From the NCBI RefSeq assembly GCF_000956405.1, contig NZ_JYIV01000020.1, positions 1 to 64,000 on the forward strand: a DNA stretch of 64,000 nt, in the 5' to 3' direction. The notes beneath the pieces are model-generated. The model did not search any database. It was given only the letters and a program-made list of their open reading frames with translations, and was not told the DNA's origin. The position numbers and the translations under genes are program-made. Of the stretch, positions 315-9,458 are shown one piece after another (the stretch's first letter is position 1; the number at the start of each line of letters is the position of its first letter). This DNA comes from Microbacterium oxydans (GTDB taxonomy: Bacteria > Actinomycetota > Actinomycetes > Actinomycetales > Microbacteriaceae).

Positions 315-342
315 ATCTTACCGATCTTGTTTCCGTTGTCAA
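315..342 (-). promoter_or_regulatory. rrn promoter, proximal
   Basis: On the minus strand there is a perfect -35 (TTGACA, 337-342), a 16-bp spacer and a -10 of TAAGAT (315-320). Transcription would begin near 308 and run through the leader into 16S. This is the best sigma-70-type promoter in the window and sits where rrn promoters are expected. Confidence 0.75.
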
Positions 343-490
343 GTCCGAGTTTCTTCGGCCTGACCGTGGGAACGGATCAGCATCCTTCATCCTGTTCACT
401 CTGTGAGTGTGTGGGATTCGGGAGGTGTTAGCTGCTTGACGGGAGCCGGTCCGAGGACCTCCGCTCAACCGTTTGGGGCGAACAAGTAAT

Positions 491-519
491 AAGTTACGCG
501 GGTTCTGGGGTTCCGGCAA
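491..519 (-). promoter_or_regulatory. rrn promoter, distal (candidate)
   Basis: A second minus-strand promoter-like pair: TTGCCG (514-519), a 17-bp spacer and TAACTT (491-496). Tandem promoters are common for rRNA operons. This one is weaker in consensus and would give a transcript about 175 bases longer than the proximal promoter. Confidence 0.4.
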
Positions 520-582
520 ATCAGGGCTGACCGCCGGGCGTGTCGCGCGCCTACGCCCGCGGATCCGGGTGATTCTCCTGCC

Positions 583-1092
583 TCACCCGGCGCGCAAGGG
601 TGTGCTCGTCACGTCGATGCTGCCGAAGGGGAAGGGACTGAAGACCGTCCACGACCCGGAGGTGAATCCCTCCAAGGGGATCTGGAAGAACCAGAAGAGG
701 GAGACGATGATTGCGACCCCCACCAGCGCCGCGATTCCGATGGCTGCGCGGTTCAGTGTCCCGAGGGCAGAGGCTTCGTCGCTTGCCTTCATCACTCGCC
801 CCAGCGTGATCAGCACGATCGCGGCGATGCCGATGTACACCATGGGGCTGGGACGGAGCGCCAGATCGATGCACACGGGCGCCTGGTCGGTCGACTGTCC
901 GTCCGAGTCGATGAAGCCCCCGCTCCCGTCGAAGCCACCGGGGCAATAGCTCCTGCTGGCGACCATGAGTGAGGAGTACACGAAGACGGCGAGCAGTGTC
1001 GTGATCAGGACGCGGCGGATCTCCGCGACGATCTCGATGCCGGGAAGGCCCGTGGCAGCGGCGGTTGCCGACGTGGTCGGTGCGAGCGACAT
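583..1092 (-). CDS. Membrane protein of unknown function, three predicted TM segments
   Basis: A 169-residue protein with hydrophobic segments at about residues 28-46, 84-101 and 117-137. Between the first two is a short loop with two cysteines (about 50 and 74), probably outside and possibly a disulphide. The start is chosen at ATG 1092 because AAGGAGG precedes it by about 6 bases; the frame is open further upstream but has no ribosome site there. It is divergent from the wall protein at 1243. I do not recognise a family. It separates the rrn promoters from the rest of the window. Confidence 0.7.
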   Translation of the reverse strand: MSLAPTTSATAAATGLPGIEIVAEIRRVLITTLLAVFVYSSLMVASRSYCPGGFDGSGGFIDSDGQSTDQAPVCIDLALRPSPMVYIGIAAIVLITLGRVMKASDEASALGTLNRAAIGIAALVGVAIIVSLFWFFQIPLEGFTSGSWTVFSPFPFGSIDVTSTPLRAG

Positions 1093-1242
1093 GAGGGCCT
1101 CCTTGGTGGGCGGTCGTCTCATGATGGCGCAGCATGTGGAGGGAGGGAAGAGTGCGTCCACCGGCGCCCGTGATCGGGCTCTCCCCTGCTCCCCGGAATA
1201 TCGGTAGTGTTCGCCCAGAGCCTGAGCAGAAGGAGGGCAATG

Positions 1243-2184
1243 ATGCCCGCAGCACCCCAGGGTTGGTACGCCGACCCCGAGCACCCCGCACAGCAGCAGC
1301 GCTGGTGGGACGGCACTCAATGGACGATGCACACCGCACCTGTGGGTCAAGCACCGACTGCGGCCGTAGCTGTGACTCCCGTCGAGGCCGTGCCCGCAGG
1401 GGCGAAGTCGTCTCGGATGAAGATCGTCCTCATCGTGGGAGCATTGGTGCTCGCCATCCTCCTGCTCACCCGCAGCCTGGGTGTCATCATGATCCTCGCA
1501 GGGCTGGTTCTCTTCTTCGTCGCCATCTATGGGATCGTGCGCGGCTCGGCGAAGCTCTTTCGCGTGCGCTCGCGCGGAGCGGCGTGGGCTGCTCTGGGGA
1601 TCGCGTTCGTTCTGATGTTCGCGGGGTCCGGAGCGAACGCTGCCCTCGGCGGACCGGGTTCGGACACGACGAGCTCAGGATCGTCGTCGGACGCCAAGCC
1701 GTTCGTCTCCACGCAGACCGAGAAGCCGACTCCCTCTCCCAAGCCCACCACCTTCGAGGAGGTCGAAGAGTCGACGGTCGTTCCTTTCGAGCGGACGACG
1801 GCCGATGATCCGCAGCTCGACGTCGGACAGACCGCCATCACGACAGCCGGTGTCGACGGAACCAAGGTCACCACCTACCGCGTGACCTATGTGGACGGCG
1901 TGGAAGTGCTGCGCGAAGTCATCGGCGAGATCATCACCGTCGCTCCGGTGAACGAGGTGACATCGAACGGAACGCGACAGCCTGCGCCGGCACCGGTGCC
2001 TCTGGTGCAGCCCGCGACTCAGTGCCACTCGAGCTACGCCGGGGTGTGCGTGCCGATCGCGTCGGACGTGGACTGCGCGGGCGGGAGCGGGAACGGACCG
2101 GCGTATGTGCGCGGGCCGCTGCAGGTGGTGGGGCCGGATGTGTACGACCTCGACCGGGACGGTGACGGGATCGCCTGCGACTGA
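1243..2184 (+). CDS. DUF2510 / G5 / Excalibur domain membrane protein
   Basis: A 313-residue modular surface protein. Residues about 5-28 form a DUF2510 motif (PQGWYADP...QRWWDGTQWT). Hydrophobic segments lie at about 54-72, 78-98 and 112-132. A Ser/Thr/Pro linker leads to a G5 domain (about 165-245), a family linked to cell-wall or glycan adhesion. The end is an Excalibur calcium-binding motif (DLDRDGDGIACD). Two ATGs are adjacent (1240, 1243); the second lies about 6 bases after GGAGG and is preferred. Role inferred: a wall-associated protein, substrate unknown. Confidence 0.85.
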   Translation: MPAAPQGWYADPEHPAQQQRWWDGTQWTMHTAPVGQAPTAAVAVTPVEAVPAGAKSSRMKIVLIVGALVLAILLLTRSLGVIMILAGLVLFFVAIYGIVRGSAKLFRVRSRGAAWAALGIAFVLMFAGSGANAALGGPGSDTTSSGSSSDAKPFVSTQTEKPTPSPKPTTFEEVEESTVVPFERTTADDPQLDVGQTAITTAGVDGTKVTTYRVTYVDGVEVLREVIGEIITVAPVNEVTSNGTRQPAPAPVPLVQPATQCHSSYAGVCVPIASDVDCAGGSGNGPAYVRGPLQVVGPDVYDLDRDGDGIACD

Positions 2185-2277
2185 GACAGGCCTGCGCCAC
2201 CACCCGTCGATACGCTAGTCCTCAGCGGGGGCGCGACGCCTCGGGGATCGGGGCCACAGCCTCAGAGGGAGTGCGCA

Positions 2278-3408
2278 ATGACGGGTGAGACCTTCTCTGA
2301 AGACGAGTTCCGCAGTCAGTGGAAAGAGCAGGCGGATGAGATCGGCCGCTTCAACCTCGCCATCTTCGGCAAGACGGGTGTCGGGAAGTCGACGCTGATC
2401 AACGCGATCTTCGGCGAAGAGGTCGCTCCCACCGGAGTCGGCGAGCCCGTGACGATGGACGAGCATCTCTATATCCATCGTTCCGGCTTCCTCGGCCTGC
2501 TCGACACGCGTGGCCTCGAGATCGGCAAGGACACCGATGAGCTGATCCGCGAACTCGGCGACTACCTGAAGACGATGCGCCAGCGGCCTCTCTCCGAGCA
2601 GATCCACGTCGCCTGGTACTGCGTCCGGGCGACGGACCGACGGTTCGAGGACACCGAGGCGGAGTTCATCCGTCGCCTGCACGAGCTCGGCCTGCCCGTC
2701 GTCGCCGTCCTGACACAGGTGCCGTCTCGGAACGGCGAGTATCACGCCGACGCTCTGACCCTGGCGGATCACATCGCCGGGCTCGGCCTGCCGATCGTGG
2801 GCGGTCGTCCGATCCTGGTGATGTCGACGGCGGACGAGTTCACCGGCCAGGTGCAGCACGGGCTCACGGAGCTCGTGGATGCCACGTTTCGCGCAGCTCC
2901 CGAGGGTGTTGAAGCAGCGTTCGCAGCCGCCCAGAAAGTCGATCTGGCAAGAAAGCGCAAGCAAGCTCAAACAGTTGTCCGCGCGGCTGCCACGGCGGCG
3001 TTGACGGTCGGAGCGATCCCGATCCCCGTCGCGGACGCCGGTGTGCTCATCCCCATTCAGCTCGGGATGATGGCGAGGGTCGCGGCGATCTACGGCGTCA
3101 GGGTCGAGACCGCCACGATCGCGGCGACCGCGGCGACCGTCGCCGTCTCTGCCGCAGGACGAAGCGCCGTCGCCGGCCTCCTGAAGTTCATCCCCGGAGC
3201 GGGAACGGTGGTGGGTGGGGTGATCTCGGGCACCGTCGCCAGCACGTTCACCCTGGCGATCGGATACGCGTGGGCGGTGGTCTGCGGTGAACTCACGCAG
3301 GGTCGACTGCGAGGCGTCGATGGTGCGCTCGACAGCAACCTGGTCCGCGAGCTGTTCCAGACGCAGGTCGGCGTGTGGTTCAAGAAGGTGAGTGGCGGGC
3401 GGGGTTGA
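2278..3408 (+). CDS. Era/YfjP-like GTPase with C-terminal DUF697-like hydrophobic domain
   Basis: A 376-residue P-loop GTPase. The Walker A motif GKTGVGKST lies at 31-39 and the G3 motif DTRG at 76-79. The G4 position reads TQVP rather than the usual NKxD/TKxD, so guanine specificity may be relaxed. The C-terminal third (about 235-310) is Ala/Val/Ile-rich and contains an IPIPVADAG...IQLGMMARVAAIYG block typical of DUF697. These proteins are thought to associate with membranes; the cellular role is not established. The start ATG follows GGGAG. It converges on the nuclease gene at 3454. Confidence 0.82.
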   Translation: MTGETFSEDEFRSQWKEQADEIGRFNLAIFGKTGVGKSTLINAIFGEEVAPTGVGEPVTMDEHLYIHRSGFLGLLDTRGLEIGKDTDELIRELGDYLKTMRQRPLSEQIHVAWYCVRATDRRFEDTEAEFIRRLHELGLPVVAVLTQVPSRNGEYHADALTLADHIAGLGLPIVGGRPILVMSTADEFTGQVQHGLTELVDATFRAAPEGVEAAFAAAQKVDLARKRKQAQTVVRAAATAALTVGAIPIPVADAGVLIPIQLGMMARVAAIYGVRVETATIAATAATVAVSAAGRSAVAGLLKFIPGAGTVVGGVISGTVASTFTLAIGYAWAVVCGELTQGRLRGVDGALDSNLVRELFQTQVGVWFKKVSGGRG

Positions 3409-3453
3409 GCGGCGGTCCGCACCCAACCGAGGCGCCGCCACCCACCCTTCGGA

Positions 3454-4539
3454 CTAGTCCTTGTATCTGCGAACGGCCTCGCGGATTCCATCCGCGTGCG
3501 CGTAGATCTCATCGAGCTCTTCGATCGCGTGCCGCGTCTCGACCTTATCCTCGTCCAACAGCCCCAGGTACTTCTGCTTCCCGTTGAAGTGAAGGCGGGC
3601 CACAGGCTTCCGGTTGTTGTCATCGAGCAGCACAGCGAAGTAGCTCTTCGCATCGCGGTGCGTGACGCGCTGCGGCTTGACCTCGCCACAGGCGATCGCC
3701 TTCACGATCTGGTAGCCCTCTAGCTCTTCGAGAGTGGTCTCAATCTCGGTGTCGCGGTCGAGGTCTGCTTCCGCGACCTCAGCACTCGTCGCCGGCGAAG
3801 GGTCTGACGTGTGCGTAATTCCGCTCACGCCGAGGGCGGTCTTCAATCGATCATTCACGCGCTCGTTCAGGAACTGGTGCGCAGCTTTGCCAACCAGCCC
3901 AGTGAACTGCTGCCGCACTTTCTGTGTGTAAGAGCCGTCGTAGACACGCGTTGCGAAGAACTTGATCCACTCGTCCGTCGGCTCGCGGAATTGGCTTGCA
4001 ATCTCTCGCTTCAGAGCTCCGATGTACTTGAGCTCCTCCGCCGCGCTGATGATCGAGTCGAGGTCGAAACTCTCCTTGCTCAGCTTCTGGATCTCGGGAA
4101 TCAAAGTCTCGTCGATGTCCAGCAGGTCGAGGACAAGGAACGGCTTTGCATCCATGCGGTTCGGAGCATCGAGGTCTGTGTAGAAGTGCCAGACAACACC
4201 GTTCGTCAGAACTGCGATGCGCGCGTTCGTGACGGCGAAGTAGCGGAAGAGCTGCGAAGCGTGCTCGATCTTGAGGGATCCCATCGATGGCTTGCACTCG
4301 ATGAGGATCTGAACCTCGCTGTCGCGCATGATGGCGTAGTCAATCTTCTCGCCCTTCTTGGTCCCGACGTCGGCCGTGAACTCGGGGACGACCTCCAGCG
4401 GGTCGAAGACGTCATAGCCAAGAATCGTCGAGATGAACGGCATGACGAATGCGTTCTTCGTCGCCTCCTCCGTCCCGATCGCCGTCGCCTGGTTCTTCAC
4501 CTTCGTTGCGAGGGAATCGAGACGCTCTGAAAACTCCAC
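3454..4539 (-). CDS. HSDR_N-type restriction endonuclease-like protein
   Basis: A 361-residue protein related to the N-terminal nuclease domain of type I restriction HsdR. The PD-(D/E)XK core is visible: D67 in KIDYAIMRD and E81-C-K83 in ILIECKP, followed by the usual ...ASQLFRYFAVTNARIAVLTNG. The C-terminal ~90 residues form a separate conserved domain (IVKAIACGEVKPQRV...ARLHFNGKQKYLG). There is no helicase domain and no HsdM/HsdS nearby, so this is a stand-alone nuclease. GTG start at 4539, 5 bases after GGAG. GC is clearly lower than the flanking genes, which suggests transfer. Divergent from 4609. Confidence 0.82.
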   Translation of the reverse strand: MEFSERLDSLATKVKNQATAIGTEEATKNAFVMPFISTILGYDVFDPLEVVPEFTADVGTKKGEKIDYAIMRDSEVQILIECKPSMGSLKIEHASQLFRYFAVTNARIAVLTNGVVWHFYTDLDAPNRMDAKPFLVLDLLDIDETLIPEIQKLSKESFDLDSIISAAEELKYIGALKREIASQFREPTDEWIKFFATRVYDGSYTQKVRQQFTGLVGKAAHQFLNERVNDRLKTALGVSGITHTSDPSPATSAEVAEADLDRDTEIETTLEELEGYQIVKAIACGEVKPQRVTHRDAKSYFAVLLDDNNRKPVARLHFNGKQKYLGLLDEDKVETRHAIEELDEIYAHADGIREAVRRYKD

Positions 4540-4608
4540 CGTTACTCCGCTCTTCGTTGAACACGCTTTAGTCCAGACGATAGCGGACCTTGGGGTGAAG
4601 CATGTGCG

Positions 4609-5718
4609 GTGCGGCATATCGATATGCTGCGTCGCGTGAGCTCTACGACGCCGGCCCGACTCTCGCTCGAACTGAACGTCACCCAGAAGCGAATCCGCGC
4701 CTTCCTTCGGGAGCAATACGGCAGGCTGCCCGAAAGCCTCAATCGATGGGAACTCGAGGACAGTCAGGCTGACGCGGTGCGGGCTCAGTTCGATCGGCAG
4801 CTCCGACCCACCGACCCGATTGTCTGGGCATTGGAGATCGGCGACACTGTGCTGCGGCGAGAGTTGCACGCTGCCTACAGGGGTCAAGAGCAGGGCGGGA
4901 TCATCACGCCCAAGTCGATTCCCGACATACTCGTCATCACTAGCCCGGAAAGCGGAGCGAGGCACGGGTACGACGCCTTTGAAGGGCTGCAGGGAGACGG
5001 TTCCTTTCTCTACACGGGCGAAGGTCAGTACGGTCCGCAAGTATTCGCCCGCGGGAACGCTGCGCTTCGAGACGCCGCCGTAAACGGCCGCCCCATCCGC
5101 CTGTTCACAAAACAGGGCACCTACGTCACCTACGTAGGGGAGTTCACCACCGGCGAGCCAGCGTTCAGTATCGAGACAATCCCGGACTCCGACGGGAATC
5201 CTCGCGAAGGAATCATCTTCAAGCTCGTTCCGGTTGACGCCGATGTGGAAGCACTCGATGCGCCATCCGCGCCCGCCCCAGAAAGCGCGCAGACCTGCTA
5301 TTGGACACCTCCCGAGTCTTCGTCGTACGTCATCGGAGCACCACTCATCCCTGGCGAGCGCGTCGTCTCCCGAATCGAGTTCAAGTTGCAGACGGAATTC
5401 GGGCAGTGGGTCAAGTCTCGTGGTCAGACGCCTCAGCGCCTTCGCCTGAGCTCCGCAGGAGCCACGATCGAGCCCGATCTCTACGTCTCGGAGTCAGGCT
5501 GGGTCGTCGAAGCGAAGAAGTCGCCCGCTCGCGAATATGTCCGCACCGCGATTGGACAAGTCCTCGACTACTCCCGGCTGGTTCGGGAGTCCGGCAGGCC
5601 CGGAATCCCCGTCATCCTGCTTCCCAGCAGACCAATCGCTCACCTCGAAGCCTTGCTGTCCGATCTGGGCATCCTCCTAGTCGTCCGCGATGACGAGGGG
5701 TTCGTGGTCATCGATTAA
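4609..5718 (+). CDS. ScoMcrA-type SRA domain / PD-(D/E)XK restriction protein (type IV-like)
   Basis: Up to 369 residues. The N-terminus looks like a small DNA-binding helical region (VTQKRIRAFLREQYG). The middle (about 110-205) matches the SRA-like domain of Streptomyces McrA (YDAFEGLQGDGSFLYTGEGQ; ARGNAALRDAAVNGRPIRLF), a reader of modified DNA. The C-terminus carries a nuclease core: D290 in IEPDLYV and E301-x-K303 in VVEAKKS. McrA itself uses an HNH nuclease; here the nuclease is of the PD-(D/E)XK type. Target modification is unknown. The start is uncertain: GTG 4609, ATG 4624 and GTG 4636 are all possible. It overlaps the NUDIX gene tail to tail. Confidence 0.78.
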   Translation: MRHIDMLRRVSSTTPARLSLELNVTQKRIRAFLREQYGRLPESLNRWELEDSQADAVRAQFDRQLRPTDPIVWALEIGDTVLRRELHAAYRGQEQGGIITPKSIPDILVITSPESGARHGYDAFEGLQGDGSFLYTGEGQYGPQVFARGNAALRDAAVNGRPIRLFTKQGTYVTYVGEFTTGEPAFSIETIPDSDGNPREGIIFKLVPVDADVEALDAPSAPAPESAQTCYWTPPESSSYVIGAPLIPGERVVSRIEFKLQTEFGQWVKSRGQTPQRLRLSSAGATIEPDLYVSESGWVVEAKKSPAREYVRTAIGQVLDYSRLVRESGRPGIPVILLPSRPIAHLEALLSDLGILLVVRDDEGFVVID

Positions 5719-6118
5719 GGTCCCCGGCTGCAAGTTCCGCGACTGCAGGCAGGTCCGGGGCAGCCCAATCGAGATCAGGTAGGTCGCTATGAGTAACCCA
5801 ACGCAGTTCATCATGGTCGAGACTCTGCGTCGGTGGCTCTCCAAGCAGCCTGGCGCGAAGACAAATCAGGCGGATCGTGCTCTCGCCGACCCGGGTCTCA
5901 TCGGTTCGAAGTGGGGCGATGACCTCGATGGAGGTGCTGAGCTCTTCTTGTATCTCTCGAACTAAAGCCTCGCTATTCGTCTCACCCTTTTCGAGTTTGC
6001 CCCCGGGAAACTCCCACTTCCCTCCAGCCGCCTTCTCAAGTCGACGGCGGCACGCGAGGATCTTGCCGTCATGCTCGATGACGGCTGCAACGACCTCAAT
6101 AACTCGGCTCTCGCTCAC
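5708..6118 (-). CDS. MutT-like NUDIX hydrolase
   Basis: A 136-residue NUDIX protein. The signature Gx5Ex7REUxEE is complete from G40 to E59 (GKLEKGETNSEALVREIQEE), so it should be an active pyrophosphohydrolase, of the 8-oxo-dGTP/CTP-type MutT branch by length and N-terminal form (VVAAVIEHDGKILACRR). It lies inside the defence-like block, overlapping the SRA gene by 11 bases and divergent from the MazG gene. It could be house-cleaning or a nucleotide-depleting partner of the nucleases; sequence alone does not decide. Confidence 0.87.
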   Translation of the reverse strand: MSESRVIEVVAAVIEHDGKILACRRRLEKAAGGKWEFPGGKLEKGETNSEALVREIQEELSTSIEVIAPLRTDETRVGESTIRLICLRARLLGEPPTQSLDHDELRWVTHSDLPDLDWAAPDLPAVAELAAGDLNR

Positions 6119-6187
6119 TACGCCTCCGGAAGCAAGCTAACAGGGAGTGCTCTCGGGCCCCTACCCCGACCCTGCTAGCGTCGCATC

Positions 6188-6523
6188 ATGCCGTCGCCGC
6201 AGACTCTCGCCGCCCTCCGCGCCTTCGTAGCTGAGCGCGACTGGGATCAATTCCACTCGCCGGAGAACCTCGCCAAGAGCATCTCGATTGAGGCCGGCGA
6301 ACTCCTCGAGTGCTTCCAGTGGTCGCCTGACTTCGAGCAGGACCAGGTGGAAGCGGAGCTCGCGGATGTCGTCACCTACTGCATCCACCTCGCGAACAAG
6401 ATCGGCGTAGACCTCGACGACATCATCATGAAGAAGTTGGAGTCGACGAAGGCGAAGTATCCCGTCGAGCTGGCCAAGGGCCGCATGACCAAGTACACCA
6501 AGCTTTCCGAGGCGCCGGAGTGA
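6188..6523 (+). CDS. MazG-like nucleotide pyrophosphohydrolase
   Basis: A 111-residue all-alpha NTP pyrophosphatase. The metal-binding pattern is present: E35-x-x-E38 (SIEAGELLE) and E57-x-x-D60 (AELADVVTY). Its size fits the single-domain RS21-C6/dCTPase-like branch. A -10-like TAGCGT lies about 10 bases before the ATG and no clear ribosome site is seen, so the message may be leaderless. The stop overlaps the GTG of the next gene, so the two products are translationally coupled and probably act together. Confidence 0.88.
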   Translation: MPSPQTLAALRAFVAERDWDQFHSPENLAKSISIEAGELLECFQWSPDFEQDQVEAELADVVTYCIHLANKIGVDLDDIIMKKLESTKAKYPVELAKGRMTKYTKLSEAPE

Positions 6524-8256
6524 CAGATTTCAGCATCCAGCGCCTCCCTTTCCGCCGCGACGCCGTTGATACGTGGGCGCGCGACGACGCCCGGCACACT
6601 AATTGGCCTGTTGTCTATGTAATCGAAGGCGACGCCCAGCGCAGCTCTCCTGGACTCTACGTCGGCGAGACAGTGAGCGCTGCCACCCGCATGCGTCAGC
6701 ACCTCGCCGGCTCGAAGAAGAACGAGTCGCTTGAGTCGATCCGCGTCGTCGTGGATCACACGTTCAACAAGTCAGTCTGTCTCGACCTTGAATCGCATCT
6801 CATTCGCTGGTTCTCGGGCGACGGCCAGTACCGCATCCTCAATGGCAACGACGGTCTGACAGATGCTCAGTACTACGACCGCGCCCTCTACCGTGAGTCC
6901 TTCCGCGACGTGTTCGAGGCGCTACGCGCAGAGGGACTCTTCTCGCGCAGCATCCCGCAAATCGAGAACTCCGACCTGTTCAAGCTTTCGCCCTTCAAAG
7001 CGCTGACCGATGACCAAGGCATCGCGATCATGGACATCCTGGAAGGTCTGCTCGAAGATCTTCAGGACCCCGGCGCTCGGTCGACGCTGGTAGTCCAAGG
7101 CGATCCGGGGACTGGCAAGACGATCATCGCGATCTTCCTGATGAAGTTGCTCGCCGATATCCGGGACTACGACGACCGCGACGGAGTCGAGCCGGACTCG
7201 ATGTTCTCGGAGTTCTTCGTCCCCGAGAATCGCGAGCTGCTCAAAACTCTTCGCATGGCTCTCGTGATCCCACAGCAGTCTCTGCGAATGTCGGTGAAGA
7301 AGGTCTTCAAGAAGACCCCCAAGCTCGATGCTGCGATGGTGATGTCACCGTTCCAGCTCGGTGAATCGGACGAGACTTTCGACCTCGTCCTCGTCGACGA
7401 GACCCATCGCCTCGGACAACGAGCCAACCAAGCATCAGGCGTGCAAAACAAGAAGTTCCGGGAGATCAACGAGGCGCTGTTCGGAAGCGACGACCCTCGC
7501 CACACTCAGCTCGACTGGATCAAGGCTCGGAGCAAGCATCGGCTCCTGCTCGTCGATGGGGAGCAGAGTGTGCGACCTCATGATCTTTCCCCGGCGGCAC
7601 TTAGTACAGAGATCGCCGGAGCGAAGGACGCGCACCGCTTCTTCCGGCTGACGACCCAGATGCGCGTGCAGGCTGGCGCAGACTATGTCGAGTTCGTGCG
7701 CGCCGTCCTGCGGGATGAAGCGCGGTCGCTCCCTGACCTCGGCGAGTATGAGCTCCGCCTCTTCGACAACCTCGGAGAGATGCGCGATGCCATCCGCCAG
7801 AAGGATGCCGAGGTAGGCCTTTCCCGCCTCGTCGCAGGCTACGCGTGGGATTGGGTGTCAAAGAAGAACCCTGACGCCTTCGACATCGAGCTTGACGGTG
7901 AGCGACTGCGGTGGAACGGCACGGATAGGGACTGGATCAACTCGAAGGGGTCACTTGAGGAAGTCGGCTCGATCCACACCGTGCAGGGATACGACCTGAA
8001 CTACGCCGGCGTCATCATAGGTCCGGACCTCCGCCTCGACCCGGCAACTGGGAGGATCGTTGCTGATCGCGAGAGCTATCGGGACAAGAAGGGCAAGGAG
8101 AACACCGGGCACCTGAAGCATGCATTCGGGGACGGCGACCTGCTGACGTTCATCCGGAACATCTATGGAGTGCTGTTGACGCGGGGGATGCGTGGAACTT
8201 ACATCTACGTGTGCGATCCAGCCCTGAGAGAGCGGCTGGCGGCGCTCATCCTCTAG
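6520..8256 (+). CDS. GIY-YIG nuclease fused to a DUF2075 (Schlafen-like) helicase/ATPase
   Basis: A 578-residue fusion. Residues about 30-112 form a GIY-YIG nuclease (VVYVIEG...GLYVGET, R57/R59, E91, N108 region). The rest is DUF2075: Walker A GDPGTGKT at 194-201, Walker B LVLVDETH at 289-296, and late helicase motifs around GSIHTVQGYDLNYAGVIIG and LLTRGMRGTYIYVCD. The GTG start overlaps the MazG stop (GTGA). Such fusions occur in defence islands; the substrate is unknown. The 3' end overlaps the MerR gene tail to tail by 11 bases, which marks the right edge of the lower-GC block. Confidence 0.88.
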   Translation: MTDFSIQRLPFRRDAVDTWARDDARHTNWPVVYVIEGDAQRSSPGLYVGETVSAATRMRQHLAGSKKNESLESIRVVVDHTFNKSVCLDLESHLIRWFSGDGQYRILNGNDGLTDAQYYDRALYRESFRDVFEALRAEGLFSRSIPQIENSDLFKLSPFKALTDDQGIAIMDILEGLLEDLQDPGARSTLVVQGDPGTGKTIIAIFLMKLLADIRDYDDRDGVEPDSMFSEFFVPENRELLKTLRMALVIPQQSLRMSVKKVFKKTPKLDAAMVMSPFQLGESDETFDLVLVDETHRLGQRANQASGVQNKKFREINEALFGSDDPRHTQLDWIKARSKHRLLLVDGEQSVRPHDLSPAALSTEIAGAKDAHRFFRLTTQMRVQAGADYVEFVRAVLRDEARSLPDLGEYELRLFDNLGEMRDAIRQKDAEVGLSRLVAGYAWDWVSKKNPDAFDIELDGERLRWNGTDRDWINSKGSLEEVGSIHTVQGYDLNYAGVIIGPDLRLDPATGRIVADRESYRDKKGKENTGHLKHAFGDGDLLTFIRNIYGVLLTRGMRGTYIYVCDPALRERLAALIL

Positions 8257-8866
8257 CTCCGTCTCCACTGAACCGCTCCCCCGACGCAACCTGTTGCGCC
8301 ACCCGGCGCAACGCCAGCAACAACGGCTCCACCAACACCGACCCCAGCACCACGTACCGCACGGCCGCCTCCGCAGACTCCCCCGGCACCCCCGCAATCT
8401 CCGCCTCCGCAATCCGCCGCGCACTCGCGAGATACTCCGCCATCGCCGCATCCGGCACAATGAACCCGACGCGCTCCAACCCCTGCAGCGCCCGCGCGAC
8501 CGCATGCAGTACCGCCTGATCGCACATCCCCGGCTTCCACCCGAGCCCCGCGACAAGAGCCTCAGCATCCGTCAAGTCCAGCGACTCATCCACCGGCGGA
8601 GTGATCGCCGCATGCGCTGCCCCCAGCAGCTCGTGCGCACTCTCCGGCGGATCATCCAGCGCCCCGAGCACCCGCCGCGTCTCGGCAATGCTCACCCCTG
8701 CGTCGAGCAGGGCCCGGATCACCCGCAGCCGCTCCACGTGCTTCTCGCCGTACGCGGCCTGAGTCGCAGACGACCGCTCACCCTCGGGCAGCAGCCCCTC
8801 GCGTAGGTAGTACTTGATCGTCGGCACGGTCACGCCGGTCTGGGCTGACAGTTCGGAAATCCTCAT
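8246..8866 (-). CDS. MerR-family transcriptional regulator
   Basis: A 206-residue MerR-type activator. The N-terminal winged helix is clear (MRISELSAQTGVTVPTIKYYLREGLLP), followed by the dimerisation helix with AAYGEKHVERLRVIRALLDAGVSIAETRRVL. The C-terminal ~120 residues are a ligand domain with no metal-binding Cys cluster, so a metal sensor is unlikely. ATG 8866 is preferred over GTG 8872 because AGAGG is correctly placed for it. It is divergent from the DUF4188 gene, with an operator between them that both genes probably share. Confidence 0.9.
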   Translation of the reverse strand: MRISELSAQTGVTVPTIKYYLREGLLPEGERSSATQAAYGEKHVERLRVIRALLDAGVSIAETRRVLGALDDPPESAHELLGAAHAAITPPVDESLDLTDAEALVAGLGWKPGMCDQAVLHAVARALQGLERVGFIVPDAAMAEYLASARRIAEAEIAGVPGESAEAAVRYVVLGSVLVEPLLLALRRVAQQVASGERFSGDGARG

Positions 8867-8875
8867 GGCCACCTC

Positions 8876-8921
8876 TTGACTTCGATAGTAGCGCTATCCA
8901 TTATGGATAGCGACGCTATCC
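8876..8921 (+). promoter_or_regulatory. MerR-type promoter/operator for the DUF4188 gene
   Basis: TTGACT (8876-8881) is followed, after an overlong gap of about 19-20 bp, by a -10-like TTATGG/TATGGA (8901-8907). The spacer holds GATAG-n5-CTATC (8884-8898). A second such element lies at 8906-8920, and the two together create the perfect palindrome GCTATCCATTATGGATAGC (8893-8911). A long spacer containing the dyad is the hallmark of MerR-activated promoters, and the two regulated genes flank it. Confidence 0.75.
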
Positions 8922-8936
8922 AATCAAGGAGACATC

Positions 8937-9458
8937 ATGTCGAAAGTCATCACGGGCCGCATGACCCACCGCCACGAGGGCGAGCTCGTCGTGTTCCACA
9001 TCGGGATGCAGATCAACCGCTGGTGGCGACCCGACCTGTGGATGCCGGCCTTCTTCGCCATGCCGGGGATGCTGCGCGAGCTCAGCACCGACCCCGACTC
9101 GGGCATGCTCGGCTACCACCTGCTCTTCGGCTCGGGCGGACCCTACGTCGTGCAGTACTGGTCATCCGTCGACAAGCTGTACGCCTACGCGTCCAGCCCG
9201 AACCAGCAGCACCGCCCCGCCTGGACCGCCTTCAACCGCGCAGCCCGAAAGGCTCCGGGAGCCGTGGGCGTCTGGCACGAGACCTTCCGCGTCGACACCG
9301 CGGAGAGCATCTACGTCTCGACGAAGCCGATGGGGCTGCCGAAGGCCACGGAACTCGTCCCCGTCGGCAAACGGCACGACCGAGCCCAGGCGCGGTTTGC
9401 AGACGGGCGGACGGGCACGTCACCCTCGGCACCGATCGAAGGTGAGCGCTCGGTCTAG
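8937..9458 (+). CDS. DUF4188 domain protein
   Basis: A 173-residue protein of the DUF4188 family (GELVVFHIGMQINRWWRPDLWMP; LGYHLLFGSGGPYVVQYWSSVDKLYAYA; GVWHETF). The fold is ferredoxin-like and related to small haem-dependent dehydratases/monooxygenases; no reaction is established. The ATG follows AAGGAGACATC, a strong ribosome site. It is divergent from the MerR regulator and sits behind a MerR-type promoter, so it is the likely regulated target. A short charged tail (about 145-173) is probably disordered. Confidence 0.85.
   Translation: MSKVITGRMTHRHEGELVVFHIGMQINRWWRPDLWMPAFFAMPGMLRELSTDPDSGMLGYHLLFGSGGPYVVQYWSSVDKLYAYASSPNQQHRPAWTAFNRAARKAPGAVGVWHETFRVDTAESIYVSTKPMGLPKATELVPVGKRHDRAQARFADGRTGTSPSAPIEGERSV

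Follow-up and report, generated by a model that had tools for sequence, protein, structure and literature searches.

A defence-swap hotspot in Microbacterium oxydans carries nucleases paired with small pyrophosphohydrolases: a possible case of guarded restriction

The window analysed here is the first 64 kb of a 133,305-base contig of Microbacterium oxydans (NZ_JYIV01000020.1, assembly GCF_000956405.1), and our subject is a compact block near its left end in which five genes are packed into 4.8 kb: a nuclease with an HSDR_N domain, a protein that joins an SRA-fold reader to a PD-(D/E)XK nuclease, a NUDIX hydrolase, a MazG-like pyrophosphatase, and a GIY-YIG nuclease domain fused to a Schlafen-group-3 (SLFN-g3) helicase (Table 1). 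An earlier note on this DNA (hereafter the original prediction) had described a low-GC, defence-like island corresponding to no named system. All five genes were found where it had placed them, and the GC content of the block is 0.606, that of the remaining window 0.684; a value that low occurs in none of 1017 overlapping windows of 4850 bp elsewhere in the window. Most of the domain names also stood: HSDR_N, NUDIX (72 bits), MazG-like (64 bits), the SLFN-g3 helicase (formerly DUF2075; 225.5 bits, cut-off 24) and GIY-YIG (23.0 bits, cut-off 22.6) exceed their Pfam cut-offs, whereas SAD_SRA, at 13.6 bits, falls below its cut-off of 30.7 and is backed by the predicted structure. The GTGA coupling of mazG to the helicase gene is likewise real, with the second gene starting inside the end of the first.

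Table 1. Features of the block and its flanks (window coordinates)
Feature	Position	Strand	Basis
Low-GC cargo block of the defence-swap hotspot	3421..8270	.	Flank comparison with G040; GC content
Solo HSDR_N nuclease, 361 aa, phage-shared family phrog_4225	3454..4539	-	Pfam 38.2 bits (cut-off 25.1); phrog_4225 412 bits
SRA-fold reader + PD-(D/E)XK nuclease (predicted), 369 aa	4609..5718	+	Structure model; conserved residues
NUDIX hydrolase, 136 aa, PADLOC candidate PDC-S07, convergent to the SRA nuclease	5708..6118	-	PDC-S07 139.3 bits
MazG-like all-alpha pyrophosphatase, putative DCTPP1 (dCTP pyrophosphatase) type, 111 aa	6188..6523	+	Match to 6sqw
GIY-YIG nuclease domain fused to Schlafen-group-3 (DUF2075) helicase, 578 aa	6520..8256	+	Pfam; starts inside mazG end
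GTPase with DUF697, left hotspot flank	2278..3408	+	Pfam; 98% identical in G040 beside other cargo
Right hotspot flank: MerR regulator and monooxygenase-like gene	8246..9458	.	Pfam; homology onset in relatives
MerR regulator	8246-8872	-	Right flank
Monooxygenase-like gene	8937-9458	+	Right flank

The block occupies a slot whose contents are exchanged. In genus genome G040 (L362), counterparts of window positions 321-3420 (91% identity) and 8270-9415 (94%) enclose an unrelated cargo of 9.7 kb, and the left edge is supported by both G040 and G022, homology in the latter running up to 3389. The monooxygenase-like gene of the right flank is present in 47 of the 149 genus genomes sampled; we compared the nine most similar of those without a full-length helicase, and homology to eight of them begins at 8265-8271, the ninth (G066) retaining a helicase remnant. 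The cargos of these relatives have a GC content of 0.592-0.623, the left limit being drawn by hand in those that do not share the left flank. A PADLOC scan of 10 large proteins from eight of the cargos gave a match in every one of the eight, to HKD+Snf2 or to restriction genes of type I, II or IIG, and the ninth (L366) has genes related to a putative cytosine methyltransferase and to a large Z1-like gene, both named by eye. The slot exchanges restriction-type cargo and is a defence-swap hotspot, which accounts for low GC content without an integrase. The original prediction had seen no integrase, tRNA gene or direct repeat at the edges: no tRNA gene was found in the window and no integrase at the block edges in a Pfam scan. 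A repeat search of 3200-8500 yielded no clear repeat at the edges apart from short imperfect ones, namely a 17-nt inverted pair reaching both edges (3432-3448 and 8229-8245, 82% complementary) and a 23-nt direct-repeat family whose outer copies (3221-3243 and 8121-8143) each match the middle copy at 74%, all of which we take as chance.

Within the block, one real association is that between MazG and the GIY-YIG/Schlafen helicase, whose co-occurrence across genomes the original prediction had proposed to check. The helicase is found in 39 of the 149 genus genomes (36 full-length, three fragments), and its contexts are many. The refuting condition named in the original prediction, that every Microbacterium would carry these genes at one common site, therefore fails; the neighbourhoods come from a simple custom gene finder that misses some genes, including the NUDIX gene of the window. 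MazG lies directly upstream of all 36 full-length helicases (the window plus 35 fetched loci), whereas none of the three fragments has it as a neighbour. In a species-level collection of public genomes, which overlaps the genus sample in part, it lies upstream at 78 of the best 80 of 289 relatives (exceptions, L161 and L163), and it adjoins the helicase in 5/5 matches among 296 phylum genomes, window included, three of these being about 34% identical. By estimate, the ends of the two genes mostly overlap or abut. Among four Bacillota plasmid loci examined, drawn from 40 matching records, the pair is present on two, one from Lactiplantibacillus and one, with the gene order swapped, from Ligilactobacillus. 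MazG (58%) and the GIY-YIG helicase (55%) are also neighbours on a faecal contig labelled Bacteriophage sp. (MT836409.1, L191). In genus genome G064 (L212:2605-4113), a MazG gene 81% identical to that of the window directly follows a C5-cytosine methyltransferase gene (Pfam 205.8 bits), with no helicase match before the contig end.

The MazG protein matches dCTP pyrophosphatase 1 (6sqw) with an E value of 1.2e-20, and residues W19, H23, E35, E38, W45, E57 and D60, which we take to be catalytic and base-pocket residues, are kept in 122/122 MazG sequences (many of them near-duplicates) and in mouse RS21-C6. Judged from these sequence features, the MazG of the original prediction is specifically of the DCTPP1 type. 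In its partner, the Walker and GIY-YIG residues, assigned by eye, are invariant in 17 aligned sequences, and a structure model with a predicted local distance difference test score (pLDDT) of 84.9 matches superfamily 1 helicases (UvrD, Z 20.3) and SLFN11 (Z 17.7). No GIY-YIG structure is among the matches listed for this model, where the helicase core fills the list; for the N-terminal part, which had no separate structure search, Pfam gives GIY-YIG and not the Schlafen nuclease core. Searches with phmmer against PDB gave nothing useful for either the helicase or the SRA protein.

The 369-aa SRA protein is predicted from its structure model (pLDDT 76.5) to be a modification-dependent (type IV-like) restriction enzyme. 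Its SRA part (residues 71-211) matches ScoMcrA (Z 14.0, root-mean-square deviation (rmsd) 2.9, 129 aligned), SUVH5 with 5-methylcytosine (5mC) DNA (Z 12.6) and TagI (Z 12.1), and residues 20-220 superpose on residues 694-953 of the SauUSI structure 7clg (Z 10.1, rmsd 3.0 over 125). The nuclease part (257-369) matches PD-(D/E)XK folds at Z 10 to 11.7, among them XisH (11.7) and EndoMS (10.9); D290, E301, K303 and Q317 are invariant in 10 aligned sequences, the active-site assignment being by eye. The gene occurs in 16/149 genus genomes, and in 15 of the 16 the distance to a NUDIX gene is no more than about 115 bp, the SRA gene being split in one (G080); the lone SRA gene without a NUDIX neighbour is a partial copy in G007. 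NUDIX is the usual partner of SRA in the genus, a pairing absent from the proposals of the original prediction. A relative outside bacterial chromosomes, gene 63 of Gordonia phage Sidious (L190), is 37% identical to the SRA nuclease of the window and adjoins two methyltransferase genes.

The NUDIX hydrolase itself changes partners. Its residues 6-131 match PADLOC model PDLC04899 (PDC-S07) with an E value of 1.4e-41, and its nearest types are MutT/NudG. We located 36 such genes in 33/149 genus genomes, of which 23 lie beside or within nuclease or defence genes: 15 are next to an SRA nuclease, four to a SauUSI-like enzyme, two to an HNH nuclease and one to Shedu, and one is part of a fusion with ZacC. 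The neighbours of those with no recognised nuclease partner are SbcCD-like, glycosyltransferase, esterase, luciferase-like, dehydrogenase, P450, integrase or family-less genes, according to a family-library scan of the loci other than L263, L270, L271 and L272. All seven SauUSI-like enzymes in two Actinomycetota genome samples (one split across contigs) have a NUDIX gene within 1.5 kb. By contrast, related PLD-DEAD helicases have none, either within 1.5 kb of a partial match (0/22) or in stretches of up to 4 kb (0/20; two of the 22 were not extended, and three of the 20 stretches end at contig ends). The difference between 7/7 and 0/20 has a Fisher p of 1.1e-6 with no correction for relatedness. 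These controls rule out NUDIX as a marker of any PLD-DEAD helicase.

The same changes of partner are seen on plasmids, where NUDIX genes adjoin SauUSI-like enzymes in L. plantarum, L. curvatus, L. fermentum and Hymenobacter (those of L. plantarum and Hymenobacter match PADLOC mREase_IV at 871 and 737 bits), HNH genes in Priestia and Sphingomonas, an AbiLi-like ATPase in Treponema and a DUF262 gene in L. amylolyticus. In an S. aureus record, the NUDIX and SauUSI-like genes are about 3.4 kb apart; other NUDIX plasmid records have ordinary surroundings. In a tree of 50 NUDIX domains that includes plasmid and phylum sequences, at least three label changes for SRA and at least five for SauUSI fall on well-supported branches, counted while the bootstrap had not settled. 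Overall, NUDIX re-pairs with unrelated nucleases. Several individual cases are also worth recording. A Collinsella plasmid (NZ_OY725717, L207:3998-4987) encodes a 329-aa protein, annotated just as Vsr, that unites a NUDIX domain with a Vsr-type endonuclease. The ZacC fusion, in G021 (L273:4982-8422), is a 1146-aa protein that combines ZacC (PADLOC 1099 bits) with a PDC-S07 NUDIX domain (149.5 bits), and the Shedu gene (SduA, 119 bits) of G100 (L264:3926-4951) is convergent to a NUDIX gene whose product is 56% identical to that of the window.

In 8/23 cases, a nuclease-paired NUDIX gene is no more than 5 kb away from the helicase, against 0.015 expected under random placement, a weak null because defence genes cluster. 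Putative C5-methyltransferase genes lie within 5 kb of the helicase in 9/35 genus loci, a count taken from the listed positions of matches to two query proteins, of which one was checked with Pfam. In G042, whose two relevant contig ends (C20 and C16) correspond to loci L279 and L281, one end carries NUDIX and the first part of a SauUSI-like gene, and the other end carries a C-terminal part followed by MazG and then the helicase; the four genes probably stand in the order that G033 and the L. plantarum plasmid also show.

The HSDR_N nuclease, by contrast, is a separate traveller, a cargo shared with phages. Its family was found in 18 phage records, and of the 20 genus genomes (of 149) that carry it, only four have it near the GIY-YIG helicase. 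The HSDR_N-SRA co-occurrence that the original prediction had put forward is not constant, with SRA within 1.5 kb at 2/20 HSDR_N loci. The gene most likely starts at the GTG at 4539, which corrects the earlier frame. The block does not make up a type I restriction system: the 361-aa protein has HSDR_N only, and neither HsdM nor HsdS is encoded by any of the five genes. A single five-gene system is rejected, since its would-be parts (HSDR_N, the pair of SRA and NUDIX, and the pair of MazG and helicase) each recur apart from the others; the block is a set of three independent modules. The defence-like character of the block, in a restriction-gene hotspot and with two recurrent pairs, and its correspondence to no named system are upheld, whereas its description as one block of five genes is not.

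We read the block, with slightly less than even confidence, as hotspot cargo in which both pairs combine a nuclease with a pool-cleaning guard against modified deoxycytidine triphosphate (dCTP). One module is the solo HSDR_N nuclease, a cargo common to phages. In another, which has the NUDIX hydrolase as partner, the SRA domain would flip out a modified cytosine, with cutting left to the PD-(D/E)XK domain; in the remaining one, a GIY-YIG nuclease would ride on a Schlafen-type helicase motor, accompanied by the dCTP-pyrophosphatase-like MazG from the overlapping gene. Both small enzymes would most likely hydrolyse modified dCTP (5-methyl- or 5-hydroxymethyl-dCTP), which may derive from degraded foreign DNA or from synthesis by phage enzymes. 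Its removal would keep modified cytosine out of the DNA of the host, so that the partner nuclease would spare it. NUDIX and MazG both resemble families known to destroy 5-methyl-dCTP. One account describes E. coli Orf135 (NudG) and mammalian RS21-C6/DCTPP1 as hydrolases of 5-methyl-dCTP, gives the breakdown of methylated DNA as perhaps the main source of this nucleotide, and reports phage kinases that act on 5-methyl- and 5-hydroxymethyl-dCMP (PMC10742078); another quotes a kcat/Km of 3e5 per M per s for NudG on 5-methyl-dCTP (PMC3744803). We count the GIY-YIG helicase as a putative modified-DNA-directed enzyme because of the identity of its MazG, the nuclease-paired NUDIX genes nearby and the putative C5-methyltransferase genes nearby.

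Several observations weigh against guarded restriction. The NUDIX protein scores below the NCBIfam equivalog cut-offs for NudG (PRK10546, 83.2 against 156 bits) and MutT (58.8 against 97.9), no nuclease partner was recognised for 13 of the 36 NUDIX genes in the genus, and an adjoining NUDIX gene is present in only four of the seven plasmid records with a long SauUSI-like match. We know of no evidence that Shedu, ZacC or the AbiLi-like partner reads modified cytosine. No NUDIX gene lies within 1.5 kb of the six SRA relatives outside the genus (198 order genomes), one of which is 47% identical over nearly its full length, or within 2.5 kb of nine plasmid relatives (nine of 22 matching records). 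The SRA nuclease can therefore live without NUDIX, and a universal SRA-NUDIX pairing is ruled out. Likewise, no reader domain for modified DNA was found in the GIY-YIG helicase, MazG is missing at two of the four Bacillota plasmid helicases examined, and in 4/40 genomes MazG has no adjoining helicase. The clustering of the modules, finally, may be a mere gathering of defence genes.

That last point can be carried further, to the view that the five genes adjoin simply since the slot collects defence genes and that the hydrolases do general house-cleaning without any functional coupling. A hotspot with exchanged cargo is what this view expects, it suits the partnerless NUDIX genes, and it does fit HSDR_N, with its few helicase neighbours. 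It sits badly with a MazG-helicase linkage that holds in 36/36 genus loci and 78 of the best 80 of 289 public loci across many contexts, and with the presence of NUDIX at every SauUSI-like enzyme and none of the 20 controls, and we consider it quite improbable for the block as a whole. If the coupling is real, it may still serve another end. The hydrolases might act in offence, destroying the modified dCTP of a phage during infection so that its DNA is left unmodified or stalled, while the nuclease cuts DNA that is already modified. The same pairings and enzyme families fit this possibility, as do the reported phage kinases that feed modified dCTP pools (PMC10742078). Nothing evident connects the Vsr, ZacC and Shedu partners with phages whose bases are modified, and we think an offensive role unlikely.

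A different target for MazG would be dCTP itself: switched on when its helicase partner meets phage DNA, it could hydrolyse dCTP broadly and starve replication, in the way that dCTP deaminases and dGTPases starve replication by nucleotide depletion. The overlap of mazG with the nuclease-helicase gene would suit a sensor-effector pair, and the affinity of DCTPP1 for dCTP itself is given as high (PMC7162842). Such depletion leaves unexplained why NUDIX, another fold, joins nucleases repeatedly in the same way. Human DCTPP1, moreover, is a housekeeping enzyme, and depletion appears to us about as improbable as offence.

Guarded restriction could also have a wider form, in which bacteria would repeatedly pair modified-DNA-directed nucleases with pyrophosphohydrolases of two unrelated folds, NUDIX and all-alpha MazG/DCTPP1, which would clear modified dCTP and so keep the salvage of broken-down phage DNA from marking the host genome, the GIY-YIG/Schlafen helicase would itself be an undescribed modification-dependent nuclease, and NUDIX would mark others; we regard this extension as rather doubtful. 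If the pairings do have the suggested meaning, type IV restriction would carry a risk of self-poisoning through nucleotide salvage, which bacteria would have solved by coupling nucleases to cleaners of the nucleotide pool. The PDC-S07 candidate family and the recurrent MazG-DUF2075 gene pair would thereby gain a function, and a genomic marker for undiscovered modification-dependent nucleases would be at hand. The guard idea is directly testable with the two small enzymes.

Every single domain in the block is already known, and the NUDIX protein is known as PADLOC candidate PDC-S07, a library entry without description, whereas its nuclease partners are identified here. A search of the open-access literature (titles and abstract starts, without subscription papers or preprints) found no description of either nuclease-hydrolase pair. 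The SRA enzyme shares its reader fold with MspJI/AspBHI, TagI and ScoMcrA and its nuclease type, PD-(D/E)XK, with MspJI/AspBHI, whereas ScoMcrA and TagI are HNH enzymes; it differs from all of these in having a helical N-terminal part and a NUDIX gene as partner, and in scoring far under the Pfam cut-off for SRA. SauUSI (PADLOC mREase_IV) cuts DNA with 5mC or 5-hydroxymethylcytosine and is called a type IV modification-dependent enzyme in a cited title. A NUDIX gene of this kind also adjoins its relatives, and the SRA part of the window enzyme superposes on SauUSI. SauUSI-like enzymes, however, join PLD, helicase and DUF3427 in one chain that is ATP-dependent according to the structure entry title; PLD, superfamily 2 helicase and DUF3427 have no Pfam match in the SRA protein of the window and are present in the NUDIX neighbours on plasmids. 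The helicase shares its core with the Schlafen proteins SLFN11 and SLFN14, although it has GIY-YIG at the N-terminus in place of a Schlafen nuclease core detectable by Pfam. The MazG, in turn, matches DCTPP1/RS21-C6 in sequence and in conserved residues; unlike that free housekeeping enzyme, it is tied to a nuclease-helicase and sits in a bacterial defence setting.

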